Below the pieces are notes generated by a model. That model was not told the origin of the DNA, ran no database searches, and worked only from the letters and a program-made list of their open reading frames with translations. DNA of 64,000 bases from Zanthoxylum bungeanum (Eukaryota > Streptophyta > Magnoliopsida > Sapindales > Rutaceae): assembly GCA_019454045.1 (NCBI GenBank), contig SKCR01021431.1, forward strand, positions 1-64,000, written 5' to 3'. Shown here in pieces: positions 1-42,802 of this stretch. Within the stretch, counting starts at the first letter, position 1. Every line of letters starts with the position of its first letter. Both the position numbers and the translations under genes were made by a program.

Positions 1-865
1 CCATGATGCAACACTGCTAACTAGCTGCCACACGCAAGCACTTGGAGTCTTGCGCCGAGTCCACGGTCAACCTTTGAGCCTGGCCGTAGCACGTGGTCCA
101 AAACCTAAAGTGTCCTCCTCGCCATGAAGAGAAAAACCCGAAATTGTCCCCAGCCACGTCGTCTTCATCTTCAACCTTAGAGACGAGAGCAGCAAGCACG
201 TCCAGGCCATGCATGGTGCTGCTCCCCTAGGACGGCCCATACGCCAAAAACAAGCTCCTAAAAACCACAAATCCAAGTTGGCCCACGTGAAGGAGCACTA
301 GTGCTCCCAAAATGCATGCGCTGGACGCATACAGCCACGAAAGCCATCTTCAAGCCACACAAATCCACACACGAATAGCATGAAATCAACGCCATCAAAA
401 TATGAACCAAGAAACTCGCCCCAGACAAGCTCACGAAAACAGCTCAAATGCTCTGTTCTCGGAAGTCTGAGAACGAACAACCAAGGTGAAGAACCTACTG
501 TTCATAGCTATTGTTCGCTAGCTCGAGGCCCATGGAAGAGACCACTAACGCACGCAGAACCGGTGCCTATCTCAAGCAAACCAGTGCTTCCATCCAAGAG
601 GAATCCCACATCGGCTTGAAGAGTCGAAAGTGCCGAGTACAAAACCCATATCGGCAACAGCACCGAAAAATAAGTGTGAGAGGGGGCGCGAAATTTCTCT
701 ATTTTCTATCAAAAAAATTACAAAAAAACTTTAATTTGGATGAAAATGAAGATCAAAAGGATATGGAAAACACAATCGCAGTTGATGAACATCACTTTCA
801 AACCAAAAAATTAGAGAGAATTTTAGAGTGAGAAATCAAGAGAGAGAAAAAATTAACACAAATGA
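1..865 (-). mobile_element. 5' part of a non-coding LINE-derived unit (block A)
   Basis: No coding ORF is credible here. In minus-strand terms this is the 5' portion of a unit cut by the window edge. Its right end (about 800-865) has the same purine-rich GAGAGAATTTTAGAG tract followed by CAAATGACCCC as the right ends of the other blocks, and it abuts telomere-like repeats in the same way. Phrases around 160-260 (cacgtcgtcttcatcttcaa) recur in block C near 7420, so A and C look like copies of one non-autonomous family. CACGTG hexamers occur at 90 and 284. Family membership is inferred from end structure and short shared phrases. Confidence 0.55.
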
Positions 866-893
866 CCCCTAAACCCTACCCCCCCTAAACCCT

Positions 894-897
<4 letters not shown>
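866..897. repeat. telomere-like CCCTAAA repeat, short
   Basis: About 32 bp of slightly degenerate CCCTAAA units separate the 5' end of block A from the poly(A) tail of the next element. The final unit reads CCCTAAAC and is followed directly by 43 T residues. It is an interstitial telomere-like tract used as a junction, not a chromosome end. Confidence 0.85.
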
Positions 898-941
<44 letters not shown>

Positions 942-989
942 TAAAAGTTAAGTATATAGATCAAAGAAAAATAATTACAAGAGGTGGCA

Positions 990-1000
990 GGGTAAAACCC
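990..1000 (-). other. 3' UTR hairpin of the LINE
   Basis: GGGTAAAACCC can fold into a short hairpin 49 nt inside the poly(A) tail. Hairpins of the same type lie at 6368-6379 and 8255-8265 in the neighbouring non-coding units at almost the same distance. In stringent-type LINEs a 3' stem-loop is recognised by the RT; that role is inferred here. Confidence 0.5.
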
Positions 1001-1204
1001 CCAAAGATACAACAAATAAACAGGCCTTAGAGATTGGCAGCAAGAGAAAAAAACAAAACACAAAAATGAGACTAGAGCGAAAGGGCTAAACAAGGCCCAA
1101 GAGGAACAAACGAAAGCCCAACCAGAACTAGCGATTACATGAAAATGATTCGTTCATGCGTGAAACAGACCAAGCGCTGCCATGCACAAACAAAAAGAAT
1201 CAAG

Positions 1205-4200
1205 CTAATTCGAAGATAAGTTCCAGGAGTAGAGAATCTCAACTGGCAGTTTCCATTTGTAGGAGGATTGCAAGAACCTAAGGCGCTCTCGAATCTGATC
1301 AATAATTTCCTTTGTGACTTCTTTGCAAGTTCTGGCCTTGTTATTGAAGATACGGTTATTTCTCTCAAACCAAATAGCATAAACAGTAGCTGCCGATGGT
1401 TAACCGACCCACGGTGTGCATTGAGTTACCTTTTGTACTAGTATGAGAGCTCGCCCAGCTACTGATCTTTTGGAGAGAGTTTGAAGGCCATTGAATGGGA
1501 GTTTTCCCCGTTACCGAGTTCCAAGCAGACAAAGCAAAGGGGCATTGGAAGAAAAGATGGGAGTGGGATTCACAAGCTCCCTTGCAAAGGACGCACACTT
1601 CTGAGGTAATAATATTAAGGTTTGCCAATCTATCTGCCGTCCTCAGCTTGTTAGAACAAGCAAGCCAGAGAATAAATGAGTGTCTAGGAATATGACCAGC
1701 AAACCAGATAATATTATGGGCTTCACTAACCGTTCCCCTAGGGCGAAATGTTTCCCAAGCAGAATGAATGGAGAAGGAGGTGCTGCCCTTCCATAACAGA
1801 GAGTCCTGAACATTGATTCTAGGCTGGAAAGTAATTGAGGACCATAATCTGAAGAGATCAGAGCTGTTATCAGGGAAATTCCACCGGCCATCTATAATAA
1901 TTTCGGACACCCTTGCATCCATTTGAAAACCCGAGGAAGCAATGGTTCTAGCTGAGAAGTGATTGCAGATCGGACCATTTGGTAACCAAAAGTCTGTCCA
2001 GAGAGCAGTGTCCTTTCCGTCACCAATACGATGAGAGATGAGCCGTCTGCAGTGCGTTCTGAGATGCAGGATCTTCCTCCAAACCAAGAAGAGTTACTGT
2101 TAGGTTTAACATACCAGAAAGAATTACCTTTGAGGATATTATTATGGATCCAAGACGACCAAAGAGAATCCTTAACAGTGAGAAGCCTCCAGATGTGTTT
2201 CACTATGGCTGCTCTATTCCAATCCTTAACTCTAAAGATTCCTAGCCCGCCTTCCTCTTTGGGGAGACAAAGGCTAGACCAAGCAATTTTTGCACCCGAG
2301 GTGGCAAGAGAGCACCCCTTCCAGAGAAAGGCTGAAAGCATGCTTTCCATCTTTTTGGCAGTGGATAGGGGGAGAAGGAACATTGAAGACCAAAAATTTT
2401 GAATGGCAAAGAGCACAGACTTTATGAGCTGTAAACGGCCTGCGAAGGAGAGAGAAGCAGCAGTCCATAATTTAATTCGGGAGAGAATCCTTTCTACTAG
2501 GGGCAGACAATCTCTATGCTTGAGGCGGGTGGTGATAAGGGGGACTCCAAGATATTTAATGGGGAGGCTGCCAAGAGTGAAACCAGCGGCTTCCGAGATC
2601 TGAGTAATGACATGATCTTGCACTCCAGAGACAAAGATGCGGCTCTTGTTGGGGTTAGGGTTGAGGCCGGAGTGGTCAAAGAATTCTTGGAGAGCAGCTT
2701 TCAAAGCGCAAACAGAAGGAATATCAGCTTTACAAAAAAGCATCAGGTCATCAGCAAAACTCAAGTGGGTAATTTTGTCCTCTTTACATCGCCAGTGGAA
2801 GCTGAAATCTGGGTTGTGGCTAGTTTTAGAGAGGATGCCGTTTAGACCCTCCATGGCAATAACAAAAAGGTAGGGGGAAAGAGGATCCCCTTGTCTAAGA
2901 CCTCTAGAAGAATTGAAAAAACCATGGAGCTCACCATTAATATTGACTGAAAAATGAGCTGAAGAGATGCAGCTACTGATCCAATCAATCATTTTCTTGG
3001 GGAAGCCCATAACTCGAAGACCATGGTAAATATAATCCCAGCGGATGGTATCAAAAGCCTTCCTAATGTCGATTTTCATGGCACACCTTGGCGAGCCTTT
3101 CAAGTGGTAGTTGCGCATGAGCTCTTGGGAGAGCAAGATATTATCAGAAATCAACCTTCCCGGCACAAAAGCACTCTGAGCATGACTAATAATATCAGGA
3201 AGGACAGATTTGAGTCTTCCACTGATGACCTTTGAAATGCATTTGTAAAAAACATTGCAGCAAGAAATAGGGCGATAGTCATCCAAGTTGGTAGGTCTTT
3301 CAACTTTAGGCACTAACGATAAAGCTGTAGCATTAGCACATTTAGGGAGAAAGCCGGAGGAGAAGAAGTAATGGGCTGCTCGGAGGAAATCATGGCCAAC
3401 AACTTTCCAAGCAGATTTAAAGAAGAGGGAAGTGTACCCGTCAGGGCCTGGGGATTTAAAGTCTGGGATGGAATGGAGAGCAAGGATTATCTCATCGTCA
3501 GAAATGGGAGCAATCAGGGAGACTGAAACAGCCGGGGGGAGATGGTTTGAGAAGTGATAATCAGGAGTTTGCTTGGCGTTTGACAAAGGGGGGGAAAGCA
3601 GGCCTTTATAATACTCGACAGCCAGGGTGCTAATGTCTTTTTTGTCAGTGAGGGATCGACCATCAGAATCTTGGAGCCAGAGGAGCTGGTTTCTGGAGTT
3701 TCGATGAAGCAAAGACCTGAAAAAGAATTTGGTATTTGAATCTCCAAGATTAAGCCATTGGATTTTAGATCTTTGTTTGTAGAAAGTTTCCTCAGCCTTG
3801 GAGAGGCTAAAGAAGGTTCTAGCTGCCAATCTTTCACTAGAGAGGTACTCTTGATCATTAGGGTTATTATCCAAATCTGCTTGGGCTGAGTGCCAGGAGT
3901 ATCTAGCTTCAGAACACCGATTAGAAATGTTGGCAAAATGGGCAGCATTAAACGCCTTTAAACTGGCTTTCAGTCTTTGAAGCTTAGAGGTTAAAACGAA
4001 AATAGGGTTACCATGAACACAAGCATTCCATGAGGATTGAACCGTTTGCATGAAGAGATCATGGTCAGTCCAAAGGTTAAGAAACTTAAAGTTACTTTTG
4101 AATCTTTGAGGCTGATGACCAAAGTGAAGGATCATGGGGCTGTGATCAGAATATTCTCTAGGGAGAAACTCAGCCAAAGTGCCAGGGTAAGACTTCAACC

Positions 4201-4820
4201 ATTTTTCATTACCAAGGACCCAATCAATCTTCCTTAATATGGAGGAGTTATCATGACGACCATTATGCCAGGAGTATTTGAGCCCTTTGTAGGGGAGGAC
4301 TGCAAGGTGAGCTTCTTGAAGGCAATTACCAAAATCCTCCATATGAGTCGGCCAGTCTTGAGAGCCACCGGCTCTATCAGAGGAGTTAAGAATGGAGTTG
4401 AAGTCGCCTAGAATCACCCAGGGAAGGGAGTTGTTATCAGCAGAGGACTGAGCAAGTGAGCTCCATAAGGGATTCTGGAGGAGGGATCGTTGAAAGCATA
4501 AACAAAGGAGACACTAATAGGGGTGTTATTGATGAGGTGCTTGAAAATACAAGTAACAACTTGGGGGGAAGCTGAGTGGCTTATCAGATGATAAACAGAA
4601 GGGTCCAAGTCACCAGGATACGGCACGACGAGGTAGGGGACACATTTGAGATAGAGGACCAAGAGTGGTTGATTTGGGAAGAGACGTGCAGGAGGTTATT
4701 ATGGTTAACCTTGGTTTCAAGCAAGCCTATAAGGTTCAAAGAGAAGAGAGAGATCAGTTTTTTTACTGCAAAAATAGAATTAGGGTTGTTTAAACCCCTA
4801 GTATTCCAGCAACCTATCAT
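1205..4820 (-). pseudogene. LINE ORF2: APE endonuclease, reverse transcriptase, zf-RVT (frameshifted)
   Basis: ORF2 would nick the target and reverse-transcribe the element RNA. The start at 4820 (MIGCWNTRGLNN) is the usual endonuclease N-terminus. The endonuclease is split over three frames, with shifts near 4660 and 4420, and ends in SDHSP at residues 90-94 of the long segment (4417-1892). RT motifs in that segment are KSPGPDG (321-327), DYRPIS (380-385), a KIDIRKAFD palm aspartate (about 456), GLRQGDPLSP (507-516) and the catalytic FADD (554-557, about 2747-2758). Another shift near 2000-2080 leads into the zinc-finger tail (IWFAGHIPRHSFILW, CVLCKGACESHSHLFFQC). A last shift near 1385 leads to the C-terminus (YAIWFERNNRIF...) and a TAG at 1205-1207. 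No RNase H domain is seen. Confidence 0.92.
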
Positions 4821-4852
4821 GGATGGAGGAAAGAGAGAGGGGGGAGGGCAAA

Positions 4853-6199
4853 TCAGTAATGGGCATTACGCCCTTTCTTCTTTTTCCTCATTCCTGCACG
4901 TGACTGGGGGGCAACTCGGGAAGAAGAGCCTGAGCTGCAGGGGCTAGCAATCAGAGCTAGGTCCAAAGGAACAGCTTTTATCGTGGCAGAAGAGCACTGC
5001 CCAAGGTTGGCTTCGCTGACAATACCAAGAGTTTGGGATTCATAAGACACGGCAGCGGAGGCTTCTTTGTTTAGCTGGCAGACTTCAAAAGCTGGGAAAT
5101 GCTCTACAGACTTGGGAGGGGAGGCTACAGGTTCTGAAGTCTCTTGGGAATTAGTTCCAACATATGAAACCATTGCTAGGTTTCCCGAAATAGGAGAGGG
5201 GCAGGGAGCAATGTCAGCATTGACAGGAGTGGGCAGTTGTTGTTTATCGGTGACAGTGACAGGACTTGGAGCAAAAGCATGTCCAAGGTTAGGGCATTGT
5301 TCTATGCAAACTAGTGACAGCTTTCCTTGCTTTGGGGGTTGAGAGCTGCTAGGCTTTTTGGGGCCAGCTGTAACCCATTTAGTCATAACATTACCTTTTT
5401 GCCCTTCTTCTCCACCTGCCAACTTCTGATCATCTTCAACCTTCTTCTTTCCTTCCAACTTATCAGCACAGTTATGGCCGAAAACATGGCAGATGGTGCA
5501 CCTTTTTGGCTTCCATTCATACTCCACTGTAACCCTAATAGGTTCATCCGTAAGGCTTGTAACTAGGTCGAAAGAATGGACAGGAGCTTTAGCGGCTGTG
5601 ATTTCAACACAGACTCTGGCATAGGCGAGTCTTGTGCCTTCATGAGTAGCTTTGTCACAAGCGACTGGTTTGCCAACAATGCTAGCAACGAAACTAAGGC
5701 CTTCCTCAGACCAAAGGGGGAGGGGTAAGCCATGAAGCTTGGCCCAAACTGGGACCTTTTTTATACCATTTCTGTTGAAGACAAAGGAAGCACTCCAACG
5801 TTGGAGGATGAATGCTTTCCCACCAAACATCCAAGGGCCTGCCTGGAGGACTGCGTGGAGGCCATCTTCATCTCGGAATCTGAACACGAAGAAGCCATCC
5901 GAAGAAAATACATGCTCAAGCCCAAAGCCACTCCAAACTCTCAAAGCAATAGATTTCACCGCATGAAAAGGCATTGGAGAGCCAGGGAAGTATCCCACTA
6001 AGCAGCGGTCCCATTTTGAGGTAGAGGAGTTGGTCAGTTCATCAGGAACCTTAACAGCCGGGATATCACCGATCAGGACATGATCTACATTCTTTAAAGC
6101 AAATCGGTTGCTGGCACTTGAAACTCTAACTCTTTCGGCCCATGAGCGATCATTGGAATCAGGAGGCTTAGTCTCCATGGGGCGAGGAGAGGGAGCCAA
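4853..6199 (-). CDS. LINE ORF1: DUF4283 / zinc-knuckle RNA-binding protein
   Basis: An open 448-codon frame encoding the LINE nucleic-acid chaperone, expected to coat element RNA. Residues about 60-215 match the plant DUF4283 pattern (WDRCLVGYFPG, GPWMFGGKAFILQRW, VPVWAKLHGLPLPLW). A zf-CCHC_4-like knuckle, CTICHVFGHNC, lies at about 232-243. The C-terminal half is low-complexity and ends in a basic KKKKGRN tail. The ATG at 6199 lies about 75 bp inside the element's 5' end. ORF2 starts 33 bp after this ORF stops, in typical LINE arrangement. It is the only LINE frame here without a break. Confidence 0.88.
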   Translation of the reverse strand: MAPSPRPMETKPPDSNDRSWAERVRVSSASNRFALKNVDHVLIGDIPAVKVPDELTNSSTSKWDRCLVGYFPGSPMPFHAVKSIALRVWSGFGLEHVFSSDGFFVFRFRDEDGLHAVLQAGPWMFGGKAFILQRWSASFVFNRNGIKKVPVWAKLHGLPLPLWSEEGLSFVASIVGKPVACDKATHEGTRLAYARVCVEITAAKAPVHSFDLVTSLTDEPIRVTVEYEWKPKRCTICHVFGHNCADKLEGKKKVEDDQKLAGGEEGQKGNVMTKWVTAGPKKPSSSQPPKQGKLSLVCIEQCPNLGHAFAPSPVTVTDKQQLPTPVNADIAPCPSPISGNLAMVSYVGTNSQETSEPVASPPKSVEHFPAFEVCQLNKEASAAVSYESQTLGIVSEANLGQCSSATIKAVPLDLALIASPCSSGSSSRVAPQSRAGMRKKKKGRNAHY

Positions 6200-6274
6200 A
6201 GGGAGGAAAAAAGAATTGAGAGAATTTAGAGAGAGAAAAATTTAGAAAGAGAAAAAAATGAGCCAAATGAATTC

Positions 6275-6310
6275 CCCCTAAACCCAAACCCTAAACCCTA
6301 AACCCTAAAC
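6275..6310. repeat. telomere-like CCCTAAA repeat between LINE and block C
   Basis: About five CCCTAAA units with one variant (CCCAAA) lie between the LINE 5' end (CAAATGAATTCC) and the short T tract of the next element. The last unit is CCCTAAAC followed immediately by T7, the same junction as at 897/898 and 8178/8179. Confidence 0.85.
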
Positions 6311-7979
6311 TTTTTTTGGAAAATTTAAGTAGTGTATTCCAAATCGTAAATAAATTACAAAAATTAAGGGGCATTCCCCAATTTATGGCATAAAGCCTAA
6401 CATGGACAACTACCAAAGTTAAATTAAAAACATAGCCCATAAAGCAAGTAAAAGTAAAGAGGGCACGCAGGCCCATTTTGAGAAAAAGCCCAAAAGGGCA
6501 TACAAATTAGAGAGCACATTAATTTGTTGGAGAATAAAATCCCCTAATAACCAGCCCATACATGCGAAAATCTGAAACCAAATTTTGTAGAGGGTCCATA
6601 AGCGATCAAAGCCCACGTGATGGCCCAAACGCGCACTCCACATGCTAAGATCGAGCACGCCATGCTGAAAGCTCGTGTGGGAGAGAGAAACTTCTCTCCA
6701 AACACCCACTCCAAATGTAAAAATTGAAAATGGCCAATTTACCAAAAATAAAGACTGCCACGAAAAATTCAGCCCAATCCGCATCCCAAAGCAGCTCAAA
6801 ATACACAGCCCAATGTTAACTGCTCAATGTTATTGACCATTCAAAGCTGCTACACGTGAAAAGGATCACGTGAAGCTGAGCAAAATGAAAAGCCCACTAC
6901 CACCTTGTGAATTGCGCCTGTCACTAGACTACTTAAACTGTCATCAGCCCACTCACTGCCTATGAATTCAAACGCATGCATGGTATTGATTGCCATGCCT
7001 CCAAAAGCCACTAAGTGCAAAACGAGCTTGAAAGAGTAAGGCCCATTGACGCAAAAACCGTCCATCTAAACTGAAACCGAACAAATGTTTTTATGGCCCA
7101 CTCGCCAATTAAAGAAACGTATTTATTGATGGCTCACGTGAGTCAAGCTCACTGCCCATGCCATTTTGTCTCATCTCAAGCACGCCTACCATGTGCGTCC
7201 AAGAAACCTGATCACACGCGCAAAATCAGGACACGATGAGGGGCCCATCACGCAGCAAGCTGCCAGCTCGCAAGTTGCCAGCTATGATGGCGCACTGCCC
7301 CAACACCTGCGCTTGTCATGTATTGTCAAGCTTCTGCGTATGTCACGTGAAAGACCAAGCTGCCATGTCTCAGACAGTAAACTCAAACACGCCAAGAAAA
7401 GCCTATGTTGCTAGAATCCACGTCATCATCTTCAAGCTTGGAACGCAGACCTCTTGCTAGGAACACAGGCGGAGAGAGCCCAAGCACCAAGCAAAAAAAT
7501 CAACCAGCTTCCAAGTGCTAGAAGAAAGCATCTAGCCGTGAGGCTCAAAGCATACCTCACTACCACGTCTGCAAACCTCACTAAGCTTGCTGAATTCCTT
7601 GTTATGTTTTGCAAAAAATCGTGATTTTGCTCCCCATAAATTTCCAAAGATTTCTTCACGCATCAAGTGCGAGCTACTGCTTCCGAGAATATCCATGAGA
7701 GGGCTGCTACAACAAATTATTTGCATCACACGAGCAAAGAACATCATCCACTTAGAAGAAAAACAATGCAGAGAATATGAGAGTGAGTGAGAGAAGGGGT
7801 CGAAGAATCTCTTAATTCTATCTAAAAAATTACAAGCAATTTTAATTTGGATGAAGAGGGAGAATCAAAGGACGTACAAGTTACATACAATTGATTAACT
7901 TCACCTTCAAAGCCAAAAAAATTTGAGAGAATTTTAGAGAGAGAAATTTAAGAGAGAGGAAAAATAAGCACAAATGACC
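6311..7979 (-). mobile_element. non-coding LINE-derived unit (block C)
   Basis: A 1.67-kb unit without a credible ORF but with LINE-like ends on the minus strand: a T7 tract (poly(A) remnant) at 6311-6317, a GGGGCATTCCCC hairpin at 6368-6379, and a purine-rich 5' end closing with CAAATGACCCCC next to telomere repeats. One copy of the monomer found in block D occurs at about 7619-7720 (GATTTT..TTTCTTCAC..GCTACTG..GCTGCTACA). CACGTG occurs at 6614, 6853, 6867, 7135 and 7344. It looks like a full-length non-autonomous partner mobilised by a LINE such as its neighbour; mobilisation is inferred. Confidence 0.6.
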
Positions 7980-8178
7980 CCCTGACCTAAACCCTAAACC
8001 CTAAACCCTAAACCCTAAACCCTAAACCCTAAACCCTAAACCCTAACCCTAAACCCTAACCCCTAACCCCTAAACCCTAAACCCTAAACCTAACCCCTAA
8101 CCCCTAACCCCTAAACCCTAAACCCTAACCCCTAACCCTAAACCCTAAACCCTAAACCCTAAACCCTAAACCCTAAAC
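7980..8178. repeat. telomere-like repeat tract with variants
   Basis: About 200 bp of CCCTAAA units with variants CCCTAAC and CCCCTAA. It separates the 5' end of block C from the T25 tail of block D, and the last unit is CCCTAAAC. The variants show that this tract has diverged. Confidence 0.92.
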
Positions 8179-11100
8179 TTTTTTTTTTTTTTTTTTTTTT
8201 TTTGGAAAAGGTTACAAGTATATTCCAAAAGTTGTTTTTCGTACAATTGTACAAGGGGCATCCCCCAGGAAAGCGCGAAAGCGCGAAAGCTACAAGAAGC
8301 CAAGAATTCAAAACACAGCCAAATACATGGCCCAAGAAAGCAAAAAGCAACGATGAAAATGCAAAATACAAGGCACCAATGTTCTAATTCTAGCGCACAC
8401 ATCACCCAATTTGAAACAATCCAAAGCAGCGCCAAAAACCCAAAACCGAGCCTAATTCGTTCTTCCAAACCCAGCTCAGTCAAAAATTCATAGCAGCCCA
8501 CATGCATCTGTTCCACCATAATAGCAACCCACATGCAAATAGATTTACCTTCACATAGGCCACGAAAAGCCCAACAACATTAATTCAGCCCACACGTTTG
8601 TGGCACAAAACAGGAGGCGAAATCCCCTAACACGCATTTTGGCAGGCTCTTCAGAAGCCCATCGCACGCGCAAGGAGCTTCAGCCCGCACACCAAAATAC
8701 ATGGCAAAAGGAGAAATTGCGAAAGTAAGCAACGAAAATTGCAAACTTCCCAAAATCAGCCCTACGCTAAGCTTCACAGCCCAAATCACGGGAACCTCCT
8801 AAAGTCCAGCAGGCCCATGATCCAAACAGCCCATATCAGGCCCAAATACACACTATTATTGCAAAACATTCCAAACTGAAAGCCTCCCACCTATATGAGA
8901 ATGCGATAGATCCACATAGCAGTGCCTAGCCAAATTTTTGCCCCTGCTATCCAAACTAGTAGAGTCTGTGTCATCTCGGTACCTTAGCACACTCGAAGAG
9001 AGCGAATCTCATGAATATGACGAGATTTTACCCCACTAGACAAACCTACAATTTCTTCGTACATCCTGGTTCCCCTACCAGATATATACGCTACTGCTCG
9101 TAGTATTAGTCAGTGTGAAGTTGCTACATCGCCACCTCTCCTGAAATCGGCCCTAACCAAGAATGTCGATGGTCGTAGAAACAGTCCAATGAGAAAGTCG
9201 TGATTTTACCCATCCTATTATAGTTCCAAGGTTTCTTCACACTTTGAGGCCCAACTACCCCAAAGTGTGCTACTGTCCTCAAGCACATTTAGGAATGGAT
9301 TGCTACATCGTTCTCCCATAAGAATCCACTACTACTGATCTCGGCATCAAGACATCACTTCCCTCAACGAGTCTGGCAACAGTAGAGTAGAATGAGGCCA
9401 AGAGAATTGCCATGGGGAAGTCCAAATCACAGAATCTCACTACCCACCATGCTAGGGGTTCAAAGAATAAGGCACAACCTCCGGATGAGCAAACACGCCT
9501 ATAGCCATGCTGAATCATCAAATCAATACACATGAACAAGATTTTTCCCTAAATATAACCCTGCTATGTTTCTCCACACCACATGGTGGCCCCTTCCATA
9601 TGAATATGTTACTGTTCACAGCCAGGATACTTTTCAGGGATGCTACATCGCCAAGGCATTAGACAATGATGAAGGGCTGGCTAGTACGCAAAATGACCTC
9701 CGAGAAGTCATAACCTATTTGAATTCAATCACCCAACCCAGTCAAATCAACACCAAGCATACCAAATGAAACGTGATTTTACCCAACATAGACCAGCCAT
9801 GTTTCTTCGTAACTCGTACGCTACTGCTCACGGCTTAGCTAATAAAGGGCTGCTACAGCGCCCAAGTGAGGCTGGCTTTGGCAGAAGTACTAGGCTTTAC
9901 GATGCTCAAGACACTAATCCGGAAGTGCTGATGACGCGATCTGCCTCTCCTACTAAACAACTCCAAAGATTTCTTCACTAAGCTCAAGTAAAGCATAGTG
10001 CTACTGTTCAAAGGAAAGCTTCGGAAAGAGGTGCTACAGCTACCAATCATCACTACCAGGCAGCAACTAAAGCATCAGACCCCTCCTTACCGCACTGAGC
10101 CGTGATGGTGAATGAACTCAGATTCAAAATCGCTTAACAAGGGGGGTGATATCCTAATTTGCTTTCATGAAATGAAGTAATTATGAACAAACCCCTGGAA
10201 CCGATATCATCCAGAACCAAACATCAAAACCTTACCGAGTTGTGCTGATGACGCGATGAACTCCATATGCAGCCATGTGCGAAGCTACAGATAAAGGCAT
10301 TACAGCATCTAAACCACAACGCCAGCAGGGGTCGAGTAACGCTCAGATTTGCCTAACGGGAGGGAGCGATCTGCCTGCATAGATGCCAAGATTTGTCTGT
10401 GTTTCCAAGAAAATTACGAGAGTCAGCCAGCAGCTTAGGCCCAAATCCAGCCCAACTTGAAAAACCGGCCCAATCTTGCCTAAGTGCAGCAAGCAGTGTC
10501 CCTCCAAAATAAAGTTCCACGCTAATTCACCTCACCGGGCTCAGCTATCCAATCATGCGATGAGCAGGCCCACAGGCCCATAACACACACAAAACCACCA
10601 CATTCGTTTAAGCCCAACAAAGACAACCCATCAAGGCAAACAGCTCACCAAATGCAATTAGAGATTAATCAAACCGCCTTTCACGTGAATATTAAAAAAA
10701 CCACGTGACAAACCTGTGAAGGGCTAAGAACAGGCCCACTTTCGGCCCAAGTTCCAACCAATGAAGACCAAAGCTCAGCCCAAAATCAGCAGACCTCACA
10801 AACAGAAATTTTCACTGAGTTAACTCAGAATAAGATCAAACCCAAGAATTCCAAAGAACCTGATGAAGATTGTGAATACACATCAGATCAAATTCCCAAA
10901 TCCTGAAATTGATTCCTAAAAAAATCGTCCAGATCCAGAAATCAAAACCAAATCTGGCCACGATGTAATCCAGAGGACATCATTTATTCGCAAAGATCAG
11001 TTTGCTCAACAACCATTCAACCAAATCTGGAAAAACTGGATAGCAAGAAGCAAAGCAGCACTGAATCAGAACCAAAATGCGACCAGGTTCATGCACGTGA

Positions 11101-11602
11101 CAGGATGCCTCACGTGACAAACAGCAGATTTCCAATATTTCACCCCAACGAAAGATCAAATCAAATATTTTCCAAGAACAGCTTGAATTTGATGAAGGTC
11201 AACTAAGGTCAACGCAGCCCAAAATCAGACTCTGATCTTCAAAAACAAAGAGATTCGGCCTGTACAAAGCCGAAACAATGATCACACAAATCCACCAAGA
11301 TTCCGTCAAGGAACATGATGAATATAAGCAATCGCCCGAGGGGAGCTCGTCAACCTTCCTCTCTCCTTCGTCAATCTTCAACTCAAATTCCCCAAGATCT
11401 ACAGTACGAAATCCAGGAAGAAATGGGATAAAAAGACTTCAAAAAAAGAATTAATCGCAAATCACACACTTTGTTGACTCGGCAATCCGAGGATCACACA
11501 ACAATGGCATGAATTGAAAGAAATTCCTAAATTGTAGTTGAGAGAATTTTGAAGAGAGAGAAATTGTAGAGAGAGGAAAAATTTGACCAAATGAACTCCC
11601 CT
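8179..11602 (-). mobile_element. non-coding LINE-derived unit (block D), 3.4 kb
   Basis: Bounded like blocks B and C. The poly(A) tail is 25 T at 8179-8203, a GGGGCATCCCC hairpin lies at 8255-8265, and the right end is purine-rich and closes with CAAATGAACTCCCC before a perfect telomere-like tract. No long or conserved ORF is present on either strand. The middle (about 9021-10040) is built from degenerate monomers. The right part (10680-11120) has paired CACGTG sites at 10682/10702 and 11094/11111. It resembles a long non-coding, non-autonomous LINE derivative and shares phrases with block E. Confidence 0.6.
9021..10040. repeat. degenerate monomer array inside block D
   Basis: Successive units start near 9021, 9199, 9537, 9771 and 9935. 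Each has, in order, C(A/G)(A/T)GATTTTACCC or a variant, TTTCTTC(G/A), GCTACTG(C/T)TC and GCTACA(T/G)CGCC. Spacing is irregular (roughly 160-340 bp). A related unit occurs in block C at 7619. In other LINEs (mouse L1) tandem monomers act as promoters, but here they lie mid-element, so no role is assigned. Confidence 0.6.
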
Positions 11603-11714
11603 CCCTAAACCCTAAACCCTAAACCCTAAACCCTAAACCCTAAACCCTAAACCCTAAACCCTAAACCCTAAACCCTAAACCCTAAACCCTAAACCCTAAA
11701 CCCTAAACCCTAAA
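11603..11714. repeat. perfect (CCCTAAA)16 telomere-like tract
   Basis: This stretch is 112 bp, exactly 16 perfect CCCTAAA units, next to the 5' end of block D. It ends at AAAGCTCACG, where other DNA begins. Perfect periodicity contrasts with the degenerate tract at 7980-8178 and suggests this tract is younger. Confidence 0.95.
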
Positions 11715-12230
11715 GCTCACGTAGTACCATTACAAGTTTAAGACATATCCCCTTTGTAAATTATAATTTTACAATTATCAATCATCATTATCAGTTGATC
11801 CTTCGGCTCCGGTTCCGCAGCTTCCGCTTGCACTTGTTGCAGGAAGCATTATCGAACAAATCTTCAAAATCATCGGGGGCATCTTCTTGTTGTCTCAGAT
11901 CAGCTCGAGTCCAATCATCCACGCAAGCTGTTGCTTCTAGAGTGCTTGGATGTAATGAAGATCGCCTAGCTTCCAATATATTACCTCCCAAACTGAAGGC
12001 TTGCTCAACCGCAACGGTGGAAATAGGTGCTGCCAAGATCTCTTTAGAATTTTTTTGATACTAAAAATGCCCATAAATATAACCGTTTTTATTACCGTTA
12101 TTAGGGGTACATTAGTATTTTTTTATATAATAAAAATATATTTTTTTAATTCTTTTTTTTTTTGGCAGGGAGAACCGGTTCGGTTCCGGTTCCGAACCGG
12201 AACCGTGGCCGGGTCTAGTCCCACATCGAT
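11715..12230 (-). mobile_element. hAT transposon remnant (3' end)
   Basis: Contains the end of a hAT transposase (see 11791-12050), a T/A-rich stretch at 12060-12165, and a GC-rich self-complementary tract at about 12175-12205 (GGTTCCGGTTCCGAACCGG) of the kind found beneath hAT ends. Neither terminal inverted repeats nor a target duplication could be fixed, so boundaries are approximate. Confidence 0.6.
11791..12050 (-). pseudogene. hAT transposase C-terminal dimerisation domain fragment
   Basis: The minus-strand translation reads KEILAAPISTVAVEQAFSLG, then N-I-L-E-A-R-R-S-S-L, ACVDDW and an acidic tail, ending at a stop near 11791. This matches the conserved C-terminal hAT dimerisation region (canonical form: L-A-I-P-I-S-T-V-A-S-E-S-A-F-S). 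Only this last segment is present; catalytic residues and the BED finger are missing. Confidence 0.85.
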
Positions 12231-13170
12231 TGGAGGGATAAGCAATTTAGGAAAACATTCAAAAATCAGCAAACGCCCCTGAGTTCTTCATGGTCCCCTA
12301 CACAGACTTTCAAAATCGTTTTCAGCAAATCTCACTGCGGGGGGGGTTGAGATTTGCCTTCCCGGTGGTTAAAGTCCTTCAGCAATCCAGAAATATGAGC
12401 AATCAGGCCCAGACAACAAAACAGCTTACGAGAACAGGCCCAAAACAGGGCCATACTAATACGGCTGCAAGCCCATGATGGCCATGTCTTGCTCCAACAC
12501 CCGAGAGTTTAAAAACTCGTGAGATAGGCCAGCATACCAAACAACGAGCAAAGGCTCAACCTGTGAACTTAGTCCAAAGAGCCCACCCACTAACCGGTCC
12601 AAGTTACCAACGGAAGGGCCACATTAAAATCACCCAATCTGCTATTCATCATACTGACCGGCCCAAACGGTCCAATAGTGAGCAAACAAAGTCCAGATCA
12701 TAATGAAGGGGCGTCCGCGATAAACGCCAGCAGTCACCATGACAAATAAAGTCCCGCATCGCCTATTAATGAAGCAAATAGACACTGCCCTCATCGAGAG
12801 AATTGCCCTGCATTACACCGAAAATCAGCAAAAAAACTGAATCGGAGCAGTAAGCCCAAATGCCGAAACCAGGCTCAATAGGCCCAAACAAGCAGGCCCA
12901 ACTTCCAGCCCACTAAGCGGCTCCAGTACAATTGCAATCAGAGAAAAACACTTCCCCGAGCACGTGACTGGTCACAAAAGGCCACTCAAATTAGGCTTTT
13001 ATTCATGCCCAAGCAAACAGGCCCAAAACTTAAAAGATCAGGCCCACACGCCAACTAACAAACACGTGGCCAAATCTTGGCCCAATACCAGTATCAATTG
13101 ACCCTCATGTGACAAACAAAACTTTTCCACTGAGTAAACCCAAAATTGGATCAAATCCAGGAATTTCTCC
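12231..13170. other. non-coding block E, related to block D
   Basis: No ORF of note. The end (13120-13170, CACTGAGTAAACCCAAAATTGG with AATTTC) parallels block D at 10810-10855, and the many aggcccaa/cagcccaa phrases match blocks A, C and D. It runs into degenerate telomere-like repeats on the right, as the other blocks do, but lacks their CAAATGA terminus and any visible poly-T on the left. Probably a decayed member of the same non-coding family. CACGTG occurs at 12961 and 13063. Confidence 0.4.
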
Positions 13171-13310
13171 CTAAACTCTAAACCCTAAACCCTATTATTT
13201 TTTTTTTGAAAAGCTAAACTCTAAACCCTAAACCCGAAATCCAAAACTCCCAACCTCAAAACCCCTAACCCCAAACCTCAAACCCTAAACTGTTGAAATA
13301 TGCTTTATCC
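13171..13310. repeat. degenerate telomere-like repeats with a minimal insertion
   Basis: Decayed CCCTAAA-type units (ctaaactctaaaccctaaac, cctaaccccaaacctcaaac). Near 13192-13215 a T-rich run followed by GAAAAGCT sits between two such stretches. Reading minus, this is AGCTTTTC followed by poly(A), matching the last few bases of block D (CCTTTTCC then poly(A)). It may be an extremely 5'-truncated copy of the same non-LTR family. Confidence 0.6.
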
Positions 13311-13800
13311 TTAGTAAACCATTAGGCCTTTTACCTTTGCAAGCCACGAAGCCCAAGGAACAAAAACAAAACCAAACAAAATTGCCTCAGTATTAAGGCA
13401 GCAGTATGTTTGAGAAGACATGGGCAGATCCACATCAGAGTAGTCAAGCATCAAGTTATTTTCGGAACCTGAAATTTAGGGTTTAAGATTCAAGATCGTT
13501 ATATTATTATGAAATGGACCGCAGTTGTAGATAAACCACAAATGAAATGTCTATTTTTGTTTGCTCTCTACGGACTATTTTGGTTTACCAATTTTCGACT
13601 TAAATCTTCTTGTATATAACAGTCATATACTAAGTCTGATAGTACATTAGTAACCAAGGAAATATATGATAATTTAAAATATACGAATTTAAAATCAACA
13701 CTCTAACAAATGAAAATTGCATAATTCATTATTCATTTGTTAAAATAAATTCCATTTACATATTACAAGATGCTCTAGGATATATATCTCAATTCTCTTT
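13311..13800. other. intergenic, nothing recognised
   Basis: Mixed, increasingly AT-rich DNA with no coding frame, no terminal repeats and no RNA gene that I can see. The first 100 bp (aagcccaaggaac) resemble the non-coding blocks to the left and may be their decayed edge. Confidence 0.4.
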
Positions 13801-14640
13801 AGTATTTTATGTGGGGATGCTACCACTTATAATCACTTTGCAAATGTGTCTAAACAAATATAATCACAATGTAACTGAGGTCACAATGTGATTGTGCTTA
13901 ATATGTTTAAGGGTTGGTAAACTAATGGTCGGCTATATGACTGATGTTAAAAGTATGAATGAAGGTCGATAATATAACTGAGCTCATAATTGTGATTGTG
14001 TTTAATATGACTAAGGATCGGAAATGTGATTGAGGTTAAATTGTCAATGTGTTTAATGTGACAGAAAGTCGGCAATGTCACTGAGCTAACTAAATTGATT
14101 AAGATCACGAATGTGACGAATAGTTGAAAATATGACTAAGATCACAAATATGATTGAGGTCACAAATGTGAAGAGACACGCCTATGATTAAATTATTTTG
14201 TGCTCAATGTGACCAAAAGTCGGCATTATGACTGAGATAACTAATATGATTATAACTGAGATAACTAATATGATCAAGGTCACAAATATAATTGAATGTC
14301 AGGAGTATGACTAATATCACATATATGATTAAGGGTCGACAATGCGATTAAGATCACAAACGTGACTGAAGCACGCCCATAATTAAGTTGTCAATCACCT
14401 AACTAGAAGTCACAATGTAATTCTAGGTTAAAAACGAATATAATTGAGCTTTGTGTAACTTTAGTAAAATATTATTGTGACTAAGCTTAGTGTGATTTAG
14501 AGTCGGTGATGTGACTGCAATAAATAGTATGACCGAAGGTAAACAACGTGACTGAGGTACACATAACACAGCTTTCAGCCACTAATGTGACTATAATAAA
14601 GATTAATGTGAAGTATGTGTGACATAACAACTTTAGGTTA
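13801..14640. repeat. degenerate short tandem repeat (TGTGACTGAGGTCACAA-like)
   Basis: Over 800 bp the sequence repeatedly returns to variants of AATRTGAYTGAGGTCACAAA and GTCGGCAATGTGAC, at irregular 20-40 bp spacing. TCACAAATGTGA-like palindromes recur (14110-14180, 14275-14370). No ORF crosses it. It is a strongly diverged minisatellite-like array with no assigned function. Confidence 0.65.
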
Positions 14641-19300: not shown

Positions 19301-22300
19301 AAGTTAAATGCAAGTTATGTTCAAAAACTTTTTCCAGATGAGTTTACAGAATGAAATAACATATTGGGCATATATAGGGGAACGTTGCAAAATGTCCAAA
19401 CTCCAGTAAAGAGAATCAGAAGAAGTATAGACAGGCCATTTTAGAGGCAAGGAATAAAAAGGAAGAATAGAGAAACATGTGAGTGAGATAAGGCAATGAG
19501 TTAATATTGTGGGCGATGAAGAAGATGAAATTCGTGAAATAGAAGAAGGGTTAGATTCAAGACTCCCTCGGCATCGTGACCATTTGGATAGATGGAAAGT
19601 GGTAACCCCCTGATTCTTCAGTGAGTGATGGTAAAATAATGCGGTAACAAAATATTAATGATGCACTTTTTAAAGAGAAGACACATATTGTGAAGCGATT
19701 TGTTGCCAAGTGGGTTTATGAATCCGGTGTTCCTTTCAATGCTATTGACAATGATGCTTGGATAGCGATGATGGAGGCAGTTGGTCAATTTGGATTGGGT
19801 TTCATAGGTCCTAGCTAATATGAATCGACAAAGCCATTATTGAAAGAGGAAGTTGAAAGCGTTAAAGTTTTCTACAACAACATAATAGGGACTGGAAGGA
19901 GAACGGGTGCTCGATCATGACATATGCTTGGAGTGATAGGAAAAAGAGAAGTATAATGAATTTGTGTGTTAATTGGACAATAGCTACCACTTTCCTTTCT
20001 TCCAATGAAAGTTCCGATGTAGAGGCTGCAAAAGCATGTCGGGTATCTATTGATGTTTTTAATATAGGTAAAAACAAATAATTCATTTGAATTATTTTGC
20101 ATATTATATAAGATTTATTATATTTCATTTAAACTATTTATGTTAATCTGTAGTTCAATGTTTAAAAATACGGGGCGGCGCCTCGAGGCGGCCGGTCATT
20201 GAGGCGTAAGGCGGACCTCCTCGAGGCGGTGAGGCGGGCGCCTCAATCCGGAAATCGGAAAAATAATTCAAAATACATTCATTTCTTCATAATTCATAGT
20301 ATGGTCAAAAAATAATTGATAAGTAATCCAAAATACATTACTTTCTTCATAATTCATAGTATGTTCAAAAAAATTATTGATAACTAATCCTTAAATAAAC
20401 TATCATTAGTGTATTACACAAATTCATGCTTTCAATTTTCATTACACAAATTCATTTAACATTATTTCAATTTTCATTACACAAATTCATTCAATTTTCA
20501 AGTAAAAATCATTATATACCCGCAATGGACGAAGCTGAGAGCCTGAGACGCGAAGACGACACACCGAGAAGCTGAAGACGAAACGCCGAGAAGCTGAAGA
20601 AGACACGCCGAGAAGCTGAAGACGAAACGCTGAGAAGTTGAAGAAGACACGCCGAGAAGCTGAAGACGAAACGCCGAGAAGCTAAAGACGAAACGCCGAG
20701 AAGCTGAAGAAGACACGCCGAGAAGCTAATGCGTCGATGCTGAGACGAGAAACCCTAGACGAAGTTTCTGATGCGTCGATGCTGAGAAGAAACCCTAGAC
20801 GAAGATTGAATGATTTTTTTTTTTTATAAAGAAGTCTAAACGACGACGTTTTGGCACCCCCAAAACGCCGTCGTTTCAATGGTAAAAAAAAAATTAGCAC
20901 AAGAACGCGAGGAGGCCGCCTCAGACCGCCTGGCGCCGAGTCTGCGTGAGGCGGCCGCCTCAGTGGTTAGCGTATAAGGCGGCCGCCTCGACACGCCGAC
21001 GCCGTGAGGCGGTGCGAGGCGGTCCGAGGCGGCCGCCTTGAAACATGTTTTTAAACACTGCTGTAGTTTCATGGTGGCGTACACATGGATACCATACACT
21101 TAACTTGCTAAAAATGGCAAAAATGTTACTTTCATTAACCACTAGTTCATCCGGCCCGGGTGCGAATGAAATTGCAACACTTTTGAGGGGTTAAATATTT
21201 AACATTAGTTAAATATTTGATTATTTTATTTTTTAATGATTAATATTAATTGATTTATTAAATTATTTATGTAAATTCATACGAGGAAAAAGAATAGACT
21301 AGATGTGAATCGATTAAACAATATAGTCTTTGTTTCCTTTAATGCCAAGTTGCAGAACAAGCATAAAAGGGAGAAGGATATGAAATTGGATGTATTACTC
21401 GCAAAAAAATGCTACTAATGCATAAGGATGGATTGTTGAGGGTGGTGAATTTGGTGATGATGAAGAAGTAGAGCCCTGTTCGGGGCTTACTTGGAGGATA
21501 GTTGGAGAAGTATCTGGGGCAGATGAAATGTTACAACCTCGGAAAAGCGTTAGAAATGCTGAATACAGAAAACTTGATGAAAAAGATTTTGATTTTGATG
21601 TTGATGAAGAACCTAAGGATAATGAGTTTGAAGTAGATGAAGAAGAATTAGAGATTTAGTTAAATTTAACTTTGTTAAAGAATGATGAACATGAACTTTA
21701 TTACATTTTGAGCTTTGGCTTCCGCTCTCGCCATCTATTTAGAGGAAGAACTGCTTATGAAACAAAAGCAATCGCAGCGACAGTTCGCTCCGCACCTTAA
21801 GAGAAAGAGTTCCGGCATACTACTCTATTATGATACCGAACCCTTGGGGAACTTCACTACTTTGAGAGTAGAGTTAGCCCTTTTATTCTGCTGTGCCTGG
21901 GCATGAGTAGACTGCTTTCCTTATCTGTACTCGGTATATTTTCTTGTCTAAGATAGAAGGTCTTCCCTCATCACCTGTCCCATTTGAAAGTGCTTCCAAT
22001 AGTCAATGAGCAGGAAGAGGTTTAGGAAGTTGATTCAAGCAAGAAAGGAAAGTCCATTGACTTGGCTACGATAGGGCTATGATTCCCATCGAGAAAGAAG
22101 AGTTTACAGCTACCGGCACCGACTCGAACTAATAAGAGCTACCTCACCACTACCTACTAGGAAGAGGTAGTGCCTTCCTCAAAGAGATTCAATAGAAAGG
22201 CTTCTTCCCTGTGACCAACTTCTGCCTGATGGTAACTATCCCCGGGGTATGATCGGAAATACCCGGCCCTGTGAAGTCTGCTTCAGAGTTCGGGAAAGTA

Positions 22301-25300
22301 GCAAGCCAACTGTCATTAACCAACACTCTGTCAAGCTTCCTGGCAATAATCTGCTCACTATCTCTGCGGTTGGACCAAGTGTAGAGCGGGCCCTTAAAAG
22401 GGAGGTCAAACAGATCTATATCTAACAAGCATTGGTGGAGGTAAGTATTATGGCTTCTCCCACTCCCGCCTCCTCATGGAATCTAGAAGAATTCAAATCT
22501 CACATAAAAGCTTGGTCAATCACTACACTGCTCATTCTCTTCAAATCAGCCCAAAAAGCCTTCCTCGGATTAACTTCATTCGAACCATAACAAAGAGACG
22601 CCCAGAAATCCCCTTTCTGATTGATGAAGCTGCAAAACACATGGAGAATCTGATCACTTCTGTACATGTACATAGGGGTCACTTTTAGAATCAACGGATC
22701 CCAACCAACCCAAATTCTGCCCAACAATGCATGGTCATAATTATCAAGAACCTCTCAATCCCAAAAAACCTTCCTGCTAATCATGTCTTTATTGATGGAT
22801 CTTACTTTAGTTTCCACAAGGCCACACAAACTAAGATTCTTATTCTTTAGGAGATGTCTAACCTCCCTTTGTTTTGAGGGCGGATCTACGACCAACCTCA
22901 CATTCCAGTAACCGAGACTAATCATAAAGGGGGAGTAGGAGCTAATTCGTACGGAATCGAATGATTACGAGATAGACAATGAGACAAAGCCAAGAGGGGA
23001 GAGCACTTAGACAATTCACTTTGAGTACAGGGAAGTCTGCTGGTAGGAATTCCTCAGGGCGTATTACAACTTCGGAAAAGTGCTAGAAATGCTGAATACA
23101 GAAAACTTGATGAAAAGATTTTGATTTTGATGTTGATGAAGAACCTAAGGATAATGAGTTTGAAGTAGATGAAGAAGAATTAGAGATTTAGTTAAATTTA
23201 ACTTTGTTAAAGAATGATGAACATGAACTTTATTACATTTTGATTGAATTTATATTATTTGGATTATTTATGATGTTACAAAATATTAGGTTTTAACTGT
23301 TTGCCTACTAATTGCCTAGGTTCCGCCTAGGCGCCCTAGGCGCTAGGTCGCCGCCCGACTAGCGACTAGTGCATTTTAGAACACTGATAAAACTTGCAAG
23401 AATTGAAAGAGTTAGAGAAATTGACACTGATGATTTATAGTGGTTCAGCCAAAAATACATACGTCCACTCCTCCAAGCCGCGCTTAAAGTTTTCCACTAT
23501 GTCAAAGTGATCGCACACTTTACACGAAAGTTTTTCGTGGCTCACTTCAAAGTAAGAGTTTTCTCCTCTAGGTTCACTCTAAATCTTTACACAAGAGTTT
23601 TATCCCTAAGTTCGTTATTAAACCTTTTCAATGAGTTTTGTCTTTAGACTCACTCACAAACCTTTACAAAAATCACCATTTTGAGTATACTCACTCACAA
23701 AGGGATTTCCACAACCTCAAGTGTTTGAATATGAAGTTTATAATACAACTTGGGCACTTACAAAAGATAAAGAAAATTAAGATTGTGCGTTTCTAACCCA
23801 AGTATCCCAAGCTGACTAAATGATGATGAAAGTGTAGTTTGTGAGCTTAGATTATGATGAGAGTGTTCGATAAAGAAGATTTAGGTTTTCTCATTGTTTT
23901 TGCCTTAGATAAAAAGTAGGAAGGTTCAAGAACATTGGCAAAAACGAAATTGGGGCTCAATATATAGTGAATGTGAAAAACTGCCCCGGCTCTTTGTCTG
24001 AGACCGGTAAGTCGGTCTACAGGGGCCAATATGTCGGTCTTGCAAATGTAACAACTATTATTATCGTTGAAGGTTAAAGCGCACATACCGATTTATTGAC
24101 CGGTATAGAGGCCGGTATGCCGGTAAACTCACCGGTATAGAGACTAGTATAATCTTTCCCGGTTCCAGCAGCCGTGCAAACTCCACACTGATCGATATGA
24201 GAGACCGTTATAGAGTAGCCCAGTTCCAGAGAGCATGCAAATCTGCCCAAGGCAGAGTAGAGTCACTGTTACGCCGTGAAGGGGACCAATATGCCGGTTT
24301 CAATGCCAAAATCTCAGGATTTGAATATTAAAATCATTTTGCACATGACCCTAATGCATCTAAATGAATGTGCATGAGTCTTATGAGCTTAGAGTAATTA
24401 AATTATCAACTCAACACTTAATATTCTCGTTTGGCTGTTGAGTCTTCATATACATTTTGCTCTTCACAACCAATTGCTTCGACTTCTTTTTGTAATGTTC
24501 GCTAATGTGTGTCGAAGTCTTCTTGTGTTGCATCATTAAAATCCATCTTTGAGAATATGTCGCTAGCAATCTTCCCTTTTTGATGATGACAACCTTTAAA
24601 ACTTGTAGCTTTGAGAGTCCTAAATTTGTTGACGATTATGGCTCCCCCTCAATATTAGTTCCCTCTCAACATGTAATTGTCTTCAATATAGCTCTATAGA
24701 AACTTAGACAAACACATTAGTATAAATTTGCTCCCCCGTAATACAAGAGTGGGGGTAACACAAGTTTTAATCTCATTCTATGATTTCTCTCCCTTTGACA
24801 TTATCAAAAAGGATGGAGAAGTAAAAATTAAGCACACAGAGATACCAAACAATAAAGCAAAAATTAAGCACAAAGAGATACCAAACAATAAGTGCCATAC
24901 AATTCTCCTATTTTGCCATATAATATTAAATACATGCATAGATCATCAAAATTATCGAAGTTGTACCAATATCTATGCATTTCATTTTTAACCAATAGTG
25001 ATCAATGACAAGGGATATCAATTAATAATCTAAAAGGATCACACATATCATAAATGGCAATAAGACCTATGTGATGCCAATTGATGCCCACTGAGATTTA
25101 TGATATGATCAATTTAAAATAATTAAAATCAACTTTGACAAATTATGTATAAATTTCATACAATTTTAGCTCAAATGCCCAATCACTAGTATGTTCCACA
25201 AACAAATTCAATTTCATACCAATTGAAATTATCATACTTAAGTAAGGTGGAAGAAACGGTACCAATGTTTCCGTAAGCATTGATTATACCTTTTACCGTT

Positions 25301-36683: not shown

Positions 36684-36686
36684 GTC

Positions 36687-36704
36687 TGGCGACTCCACTG
36701 GGGA
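36687..36704 (+). other. primer binding site, element 1
   Basis: TGGCGACTCCACTGGGGA lies three bases after the 5' LTR. The identical site is at 53122-53139 in element 2. It matches the tRNA-Arg type PBS described for Ogre/Tat elements. Confidence 0.8.
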
Positions 36705-40330: not shown

Positions 40331-40533
40331 AGGCCGAGAATGGCACTCCAAGAATGGAAGCACGGTTCGGGAATGAACCAAGGGTCGCAGCACCTCACCA
40401 CCAAATCAAAGCAACTCAACACATGGTAAGTCAAGTGGCAGCTGGCGAGCCAGGTAAGTAGAAATGCATTGCATAACTTTGATAGGATTGTCACTGTTGT
40501 ACATTACACAAGTCCCATCAAAGTGGGGGCGAC

Positions 40534-42797: not shown

Positions 42798-42802
42798 GAT
42801 GG

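Follow-up and report, generated by a model that had tools for sequence, protein, structure and literature searches.

How did a long interspersed nuclear element (LINE) and several non-coding units come to stand in a row, all in one orientation, between telomeric repeats of a flowering plant? This question is raised by the first 64,000 nucleotides of contig SKCR01021431.1 (C18338 in this study) of Zanthoxylum bungeanum, a stretch called the window here. It was confirmed that the window holds an array of four minus-strand units, A to D, with CCCTAAA tracts between them (Table 1), as an original prediction for this stretch, in which all units pointed in the same direction, had claimed. The window starts at base 1 of the contig; thus, unit A is incomplete, its 3′ part lying beyond the contig start. 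It was also confirmed that the habit is genome-wide, and the family is found repeatedly inside telomere repeats. The array very probably represents a plant L1-type lineage that targets telomeric repeats, together with non-coding partners that use the same machinery, at a chromosome end.

Table 1. Coordinates of the units, tracts and coding regions in the left part of the window.
Feature	Position	Strand	Remarks
Unit A	1..865	-	non-coding; LINE-type terminus; 5′ end 865; 3′ part beyond contig start
Telomeric tract A/B	866..897	+	imperfect CCCTAAA; terminates ...CCCTAAAC
Unit B poly(A) tail	898..940	-	43 A on element strand
Unit B, plant L1-type LINE	941..6270	-	5′ end 6270 (CAAATGA); basis: domains, relatives, trees
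ORF2 of B	1244..4817	-	endonuclease, reverse transcriptase, zf-RVT; several frames
ORF1 of B	4853..6199	-	448 amino acids; DUF4283, PF14111 E=1.6e-30
Telomeric tract B/C	6271..6310	+	terminates ...CCCTAAAC
Unit C poly(A) tail	6311..6317	-	7 A
Unit C	6318..7977	-	non-coding; termini in common with other units
Telomeric tract C/D	7978..8178	+	about 28 repeats including CCCCTAA variants; terminates ...CCCTAAAC
Unit D poly(A) tail	8179..8203	-	25 A
Unit D	8204..11594	-	non-coding; diverged internal motifs; termini in common with other units
Conserved 3′ terminal region	8204..8295 (D); 6318-6409 (C)	-	hairpins before poly(A)
Telomeric tract proximal to D	11595..11714	+	16 perfect repeats; non-telomeric DNA from 11715
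Older unit remnant	~12215..13168	-	orientation and motif bias as in the non-coding units; 54-bp match to D (81%)
Degenerate telomeric tract	13169..13292	+	T10 run within; proximal edge of array

The telomeric motif, as CCCTAAA or TTTAGGG, occurs 52 times in the window, against a mean of 12.1 and a maximum of 23 in 100 first-order simulations. On the plus strand, 42 of the 48 CCCTAAA copies lie within the four tracts, and 4 more lie in the degenerate tract (13160-13292). The T-runs that represent the tails of B, C and D each begin immediately after CCCTAAAC. Exactly 3 of the 57 T-runs of at least seven residues in the window (31 on the plus strand and 26 on the minus strand) are preceded by CCCTAAAC, and these three are the unit tails; no other rotation of the repeat stands directly before any of the 57 on either strand. 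A chance origin was rejected on the repeat count, compared with simulations, and on this pattern of tails. At their 5′ ends, the units close with CAAATGA at 859-865, 6264-6270, 7971-7977 and 11588-11594, and the first exact CCCTAAA follows after 1, 5, 14 and 8 bases in A, B, C and D, respectively. Thus, the two structural claims made earlier, a single phase for the three tails and four 5′ ends of CAAATGA followed by CCCTAAA, are both correct. Segmental duplication of a single unit was also rejected, as the units align at their termini only. Target-site duplications of 7-20 bp are not resolvable within a 7-bp repeat.

Is the same join common elsewhere in the genome? I performed a pattern scan in which any of the seven phases was allowed between (CCCTAAA)2 and T9. 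It gave 192 matches, T-run multiplicity included, and the reversed pattern, used as a control, gave 0 matches in the genome. Manual de-duplication of the first 100 of the 192 matches left 40 distinct junctions on 23 contigs, which include two of the window's own and in which related loci are uncollapsed. Among these listed matches, 33 of the 40 junctions have the phase ...AAAC joined to T, and 30 of them are exactly CCCTAAAC; the remaining junctions are AAA joined to T (5/40) or degenerate (2/40). The claim of a single phase therefore extends well beyond the window.

The flanks of the 5′ ends were assessed with a query of 377 bp from the 5′ end of C, without telomeric repeat, against the 3.96-Gb genome. 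At least 44 matches were found, with 40 of 66 candidates scored; they consist of 39 other copies, the window's own units C and A, and 3 second pieces of copies already counted. Within 120 bp of the 5′ end, at least one exact CCCTAAA is present in 29 of the 39 copies and at least two in 25. When the flanks were scored by alignment to the repeat in the predicted orientation, 30 of the 39 lay beyond the 99th percentile of 1000 control windows and 28 beyond the control maximum. A telomeric flank in the reverse orientation was found in 0 of the 39 copies, and sequence inside the element passed the telomeric threshold in only one. After near-identical loci had been collapsed (6 multi-member groups among the 39), 23 of 30 groups were telomere-flanked. 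At 10 or more loci, the tract continues into the poly(T) and 3′ end of another element. A position of most copies in ordinary DNA had been named in advance as the outcome that would speak against targeting; for the C-type 5′ ends the opposite was found.

What kind of element is unit B? Judged by its sequence, it is a plant L1-type LINE (L1 is the clade name that I assume for its lineage), with a DUF4283 protein encoded by open reading frame 1 (ORF1), an endonuclease (EN), reverse transcriptase and zf-RVT in ORF2, and a poly(A) tail. ORF1 presumably contains one CCHC-like knuckle. In ORF2, RVT_1 (PF00078) and zf-RVT (PF13966) were detected, and its aligned pieces contain no in-frame stop. They align to an EN-containing relative, and the EN motifs N, E, Y, GDFN and SDH are visible, whose residues I take to have their usual roles. 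The EN-type domain PF03372 is present in the relatives of B, and the nearest named relatives of its ORF1 and ORF2, among those listed, are plant LINEs of Salicaceae and Pistacia.

A second B-like LINE (L100) was found near the end of a 1.53-Mb contig (C47125). Its 3′ end lies at a 38-repeat tract (both CCCTAAA and CCCTAAC counted as repeats), with ...TAAACCCTAAAC joined to T12. Its 5′ end closes with CAAATGA (CAAATGAATTG) and is followed by a 21-repeat tract and then by T12 and a C-like unit, and another LINE remnant makes up the contig end. The 5′ part of a further B-like LINE (L103), whose ORF1 is 74% identical over 240 amino acids, adjoins a 52-repeat tract at the end of a 0.48-Mb contig (C22649). 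Thus, the 5′ end is telomere-flanked in all three LINEs in which it is readable, B, L100 and L103. In four contig-end stretches, 4 of the 5 recognised 3′ ends come after TAAACCCTAAAC; one of these stretches, L101, has no poly(T) junction.

In the trees, which include no R1 rows, the ORF2 sequences of B, of L100 and of the remnant at the end of the L100 contig form one clade (99/96) next to the Salicaceae and Pistacia LINEs, the end remnant filling 28% of the columns. Synonymous sites are saturated between the compared copies (proportion of synonymous differences, pS, 0.77-0.83), and the nonsynonymous proportion (pN) is 0.16 between the ORF1 sequences of B and L103, 0.36 between those of B and L100, and 0.26 between the ORF2 sequences of B and L100. 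These values show that purifying selection has acted on the proteins. The telomeric habit is probably old, the alternative being separate acquisition by different lineages.

Units A, C and D gave no tblastn match to LINE proteins, and decayed LINE coding was rejected for them on this ground. All four 5′ ends can be aligned together; the pairwise matches found cover 57-200 bp at 77-86% identity (200 bp at 77% for A and C), and the final 90-100 bp of B, C and D are alignable as well. The non-coding units bear the termini of the LINE and are best explained as non-autonomous partners of it. The array had been described as LINE and LINE-like units; this holds for B and for the common termini, but A, C and D are non-coding. 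A search for known RNA families in 1-14000 gave one sub-threshold match only (12002-12135), and this reading was rejected.

The composition of the non-coding units was also recorded. TGGGC occurs 52 times on the element strand of these units (A 3, C 15, D 21 and the older remnant 13) and its complement 0 times; in A alone the count is not above shuffles. For comparison, the strand ratio is 8:6 in B and 56:37, in the same sense, in the rest of the window. CACGTG occurs 13 times in the non-coding units against 0.67 expected. I assume that these two motifs can be called Site II and G-box, respectively. G+T on the element strand amounts to 0.60-0.63 in the non-coding units and 0.505 in B. Elsewhere in the window the mean is 0.50, with single 500-bp windows from 0.41 to 0.75. 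Unit D contains at 8930-10050 diverged repeats with GATTTTACCC, GCTACTG and GCTACA among their motifs.

What the LINE and its partners share at the 3′ end was assessed in the genome. The motif [GA]GAAAA stands directly after the T run in 16 of 18 junction loci (30 delivered loci minus repeats of the same T run); one of the other two has it after about 27 bp, and one has GTAAAA like B. An alignment of 25 rows was made from 22 of 29 extracted 3′ ends together with those of B (941-1032), C and D. The extraction pattern overlooked some ends, such as L012 and L050, and L032:241, L034, L071, two of L073, L077 and L078, in which the hairpin region is deleted or unalignable, were left out. A GGGG/CCCC hairpin has four pairs, each retained in 22-25 of the 25 rows. 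Double changes occur at 3 of 7 predicted pairs, one of them within this hairpin, and compared with shuffles the folds of the C and D 3′ ends are better than most (z -1.5 and -2.0). Thus, the conservation of the 3′ hairpin is clear, and its covariation support is modest.

Which strand would prime the insertion? As ...CCCTAAAC is joined directly to the poly(A) complementary DNA, the implied primer is a 3′ end of the C-rich strand. Addition to the G-rich overhang would give poly(A) and then CCCTAAA, so that the junction speaks against it, and terminal addition of the HeT-A type was rejected by the same polarity. The original prediction had argued for priming from the C-rich strand rather than addition to a 3′ overhang, and the polarity (poly(A), then GTTTAGGG) fits this. 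The cycle may begin with a nick that the predicted ORF2 endonuclease makes in double-stranded (CCCTAAA)n, on the C-rich strand and between two Cs (CCCTAAAC^CC). Reverse transcription of the poly(A) tail would then be primed by the ...CCCTAAAC 3′ end set free there (target-primed reverse transcription). The RNAs of the LINE and its partners are probably recognised by the conserved hairpin region at their 3′ end, and A, C and D might be mobilised in trans. When the second strand is completed, the 5′ end, which reads GGGG..TCATTTG on the element strand, would become linked to telomeric repeats again. Repeats may go on being added and shuffled by telomerase and recombination, and the insertions would come to align in one orientation with the poly(A) telomere-ward.

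Do the arrays lie at chromosome ends? In excerpts of a paper on the complete maize genome, the G-rich strand is described as running towards the end at all telomeres, and inverted copies are described in telomere-flanking regions, e.g. chr6L (PMC10335936). This favours taking the orientation as a pointer to the telomere, although not absolutely outside telomeres. If the arrays are at chromosome ends, those with plus-strand CCCTAAA are expected close to the left end of their contig and those with minus-strand CCCTAAA close to the right. The position test uses one copy per contig and comprises 32 rows; its 31 contigs include that of the window, and C21322 has two rows. When contigs of 50 kb or more are considered, the predicted telomere end is no more than 20 kb away for 13 of 22 rows (12 of 21 if the contig of the window is excluded), and the other end for 0 of 22. 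The counts are 9/14 and 0/14 on contigs of at least 100 kb, and 20/32 near the predicted end for all rows. Five contigs of more than 50 kb outside the test (C301, C3107, C8557, C22649 and C17890) also have junctions, about 11 kb or less from the predicted end. Among 16 predicted-end termini of 600 bp, 6 have telomeric repeats (L088 in the first 26 bases only) and 4 more have matches to units of the window. Such an asymmetry is not what assembly breaks in repeats would be expected to produce by themselves, and these contig ends may be chromosome ends. On one of these contigs, CCCTGGA/CCCTGAA variant repeats were seen near a D-like element, close to the contig end (C17890:144200-145000, L097).

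Several results weigh against targeting by this lineage at chromosome ends. B is not intact, its ORF2 having frame breaks near 4605, 4477, 2081 and 1393 (tblastn with a full-length relative as query), ORF2 of L100 is in several frames with one stop in its main piece, and the fifth recognised 3′ end in the contig-end stretches (L103, 4731) has a degenerate flank. When 2 mismatches at most are allowed, the junction 13-mer CCCTAAACTTTTT has 6 matches in the window against 3.9 expected, and 17 of 100 shuffles reach 6; thus, only the three exact matches, all at junctions, are informative. The 3′ end of B folds no better than shuffles (z 1.3; 187 of 200 as good), and covariation contributes little to the 3′ fold (term -0.2). 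As for position, the predicted end is the nearer one for 23 of all 32 rows, and the other end is no more than 20 kb away for 7 of 32, all on contigs of less than 50 kb. Six of the 16 predicted-end termini have no telomeric repeats and do not match units of the window either. The array of C27094 is internal (314-321 kb of 514423), with neither contig end telomeric in the last 600 bp, and the arrays of C21322 (31351-36920 of 240468) are in mixed orientation. In addition, 9 of the 39 5′ flanks are below the threshold: those of L042/L043 (near-identical), L054, L058 and L069 look non-telomeric, and those of L059/L060 (near-identical), L076 and L078 look degenerate. Near-identical flanks imply that copies were also multiplied by recombination or are duplicated haplotypes. 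Regarding the two unusual contigs, the C27094 array is a possible interstitial telomere, and in C21322 minus arrays at 31-35 kb face a plus array at 36.7 kb, a layout that two telomeres fused head to head, or a join made in the assembly, could produce.

Could a few chance insertions have been multiplied by subtelomeric recombination, such as break-induced replication or unequal exchange, without any targeting? The near-identical loci, which form 6 multi-member groups among the 39 copies, are what this would produce, and the MoTeR arrays of a fungus expand and contract in this way (PMC7367193; this and the other papers are cited for excerpts of their text). However, 23 of the 30 groups are still telomere-flanked after collapsing, the units vary in length and content, the autonomous copies are synonymously saturated, and tract and tail lengths differ between junctions. 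I regard recombination alone as an unlikely origin, if the best of the alternatives.

Less probable still, the telomeric repeats may belong to the element itself, either at the 5′ end of its RNA or through readthrough past the poly(A), and be copied with it. Both flanks are telomeric in B, C and D of the window and in L100, MoTeR1 has a telomere-like run at a terminus (PMC7367193), and pairing of a readthrough RNA would presumably fix the phase too. The tracts, on the other hand, range from a few to about 52 repeats with differing variants, some 5′ ends have no repeats, and the bases between CAAATGA and the repeats vary by copy.

It might also be supposed that untargeted L1-type LINEs survive mostly in telomeric DNA, where their insertions are harmless. 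Chromosome ends can be safe havens, and the copies L042, L043, L054 and L069 lie outside telomeric repeats. Such a retention bias fails to explain one phase of seven (33 of 40 junctions among the matches listed) or the orientation (0 of 39 reversed). A typical L1 endonuclease is expected to act at a T/A step, whereas the join here comes after CCCTAAAC. This explanation is very improbable. An assembly or segmental-duplication artefact deserves almost no credence: C4805, C2345, C20628 and C35482 are exactly 20000, 25000, 30000 and 105000 long, which suggests trimming or splitting, but the same structure with different units recurs across 23 contigs (40 junctions among the matches listed) and is also seen where contigs of 0.45-1.5 Mb end.

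Targeting of telomeric repeats has precedents. The silkworm TRAS/SART family belongs to the R1 clade. SART1 of Bombyx mori resembles the present family in that it is inserted in telomeric repeats with its sense strand along the G-rich strand, its poly(A) is joined to telomeric repeats, and its EN cuts the bottom (C-rich) strand before reverse transcription (PMC7265360). It differs in the join, its tail being attached between TT and AGG and here before GTTTAGGG, and in the proteins: the set here is plant L1-type, with a DUF4283 ORF1, and three of the four units in the window are non-coding. TRAS1 of B. mori is likewise specific for telomeric repeats, with targeting encoded by its EN (PMC7265360, PMC4700185). 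Its orientation is opposite to that of SART1 and its position is another; the TRAS join is between C and T of the C-rich strand, and the join here is before GTTTAGGG. The likeness to TRAS/SART that had been proposed is thus one of behaviour rather than of demonstrated descent, and the nearest named ORF1 and ORF2 relatives of B are the plant LINEs of Salicaceae and Pistacia.

In Magnaporthe oryzae, MoTeR1 and MoTeR2 form head-to-tail arrays with telomeric tracts between them, and MoTeR2, which shares both termini of MoTeR1 but lacks the reverse transcriptase, recalls the non-coding partners found here (PMC7367193). The FoTeRs of Fusarium oxysporum have telomeric repeats at both ends (PMC12857005). 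MoTeR1 differs in its putative restriction-like endonuclease and in its 5′ end, which faces the chromosome end; the nuclease here is EN-type (PF03372 in relatives, EN pieces in B), and the 3′ end is telomere-ward by orientation. HeT-A, TART and TAHRE of Drosophila form non-LTR (lacking long terminal repeats) arrays at chromosome ends, and HeT-A is a partner of non-autonomous kind. Their poly(A) tails are centromere-ward (PMC10088271), whereas those of the present family are telomere-ward and within repeats. Zepp of the green alga Chlorella is a telomere-associated retrotransposon of the green lineage (PMC10088271).

Is there an equivalent in land plants? Full-text literature searches, whose coverage excludes most subscription journals, found none. 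The list of telomere-associated retrotransposons in excerpts of a 2023 paper comprises insects, fungi, rotifers, Giardia, a lizard and a green alga, and names no land plant there (PMC10088271). In 74 Arabidopsis accessions, inserts in telomeric arrays were organellar DNA, ribosomal DNA, duplicated or translocated fragments and seven unclassified ones; a LINE is not mentioned among them, and the words transposable and retrotransposon occur 0 times in the text of this survey (PMC11406999). The term telomere-specific LINE is used for Drosophila in passages of PMC5738225 and PMC8122249. Pattern scans of viral contigs and of genome contigs gave 0 matches, and protein scans gave either no relative or one distant locus each (L001, L002), which was not used. 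As far as seen, the way of working is known; novelty lies in the lineage, the join, the host group and the non-coding partners.

If true, a plant L1-type lineage with a telomere habit would be an independent plant example of targeting, with a plant endonuclease for a 7-bp-repeat target. The questions asked in silkworm would then be open for plant telomeres: are the ends maintained by telomerase or by LINEs? Such elements may help to explain why some plant contigs end before clean telomeres, and they might affect telomere length. A further idea is that telomerase repeats, a long-lived LINE lineage maintained by selection and its partners form a mixed end system, which adds kilobases and helps to maintain or buffer the ends as proposed for silkworm, the non-coding units being functional RNAs with one-stranded UGGGC and G-box sites. 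This remains a tentative idea, and rather an unlikely one.

Proximal to the four units, the older remnant is a fifth unit; it adjoins the degenerate telomeric tract, and its 5′ end has no CAAATGA terminus. Within this tract, T10 is followed by GAAAAG (13190-13214), which may be all that truncation has left of an insertion. To the right of the array, AT-rich DNA is found together with a PP2C44-like gene. The best relatives of this gene are from Melia, Citrus, Xanthoceras and Pistacia (92-94% identity), so that a plant of the order Sapindales is probable. A fragment of a different, diverged LINE endonuclease was found at 22195-22925, with no CCCTAAA or TTTAGGG nearby. The regions 34423-42798 and 50735-59896 have long direct repeats of 96-98% identity and gag-like ORFs (37713-38390 and 54153-55280), and by these features they are probably LTR retrotransposons.

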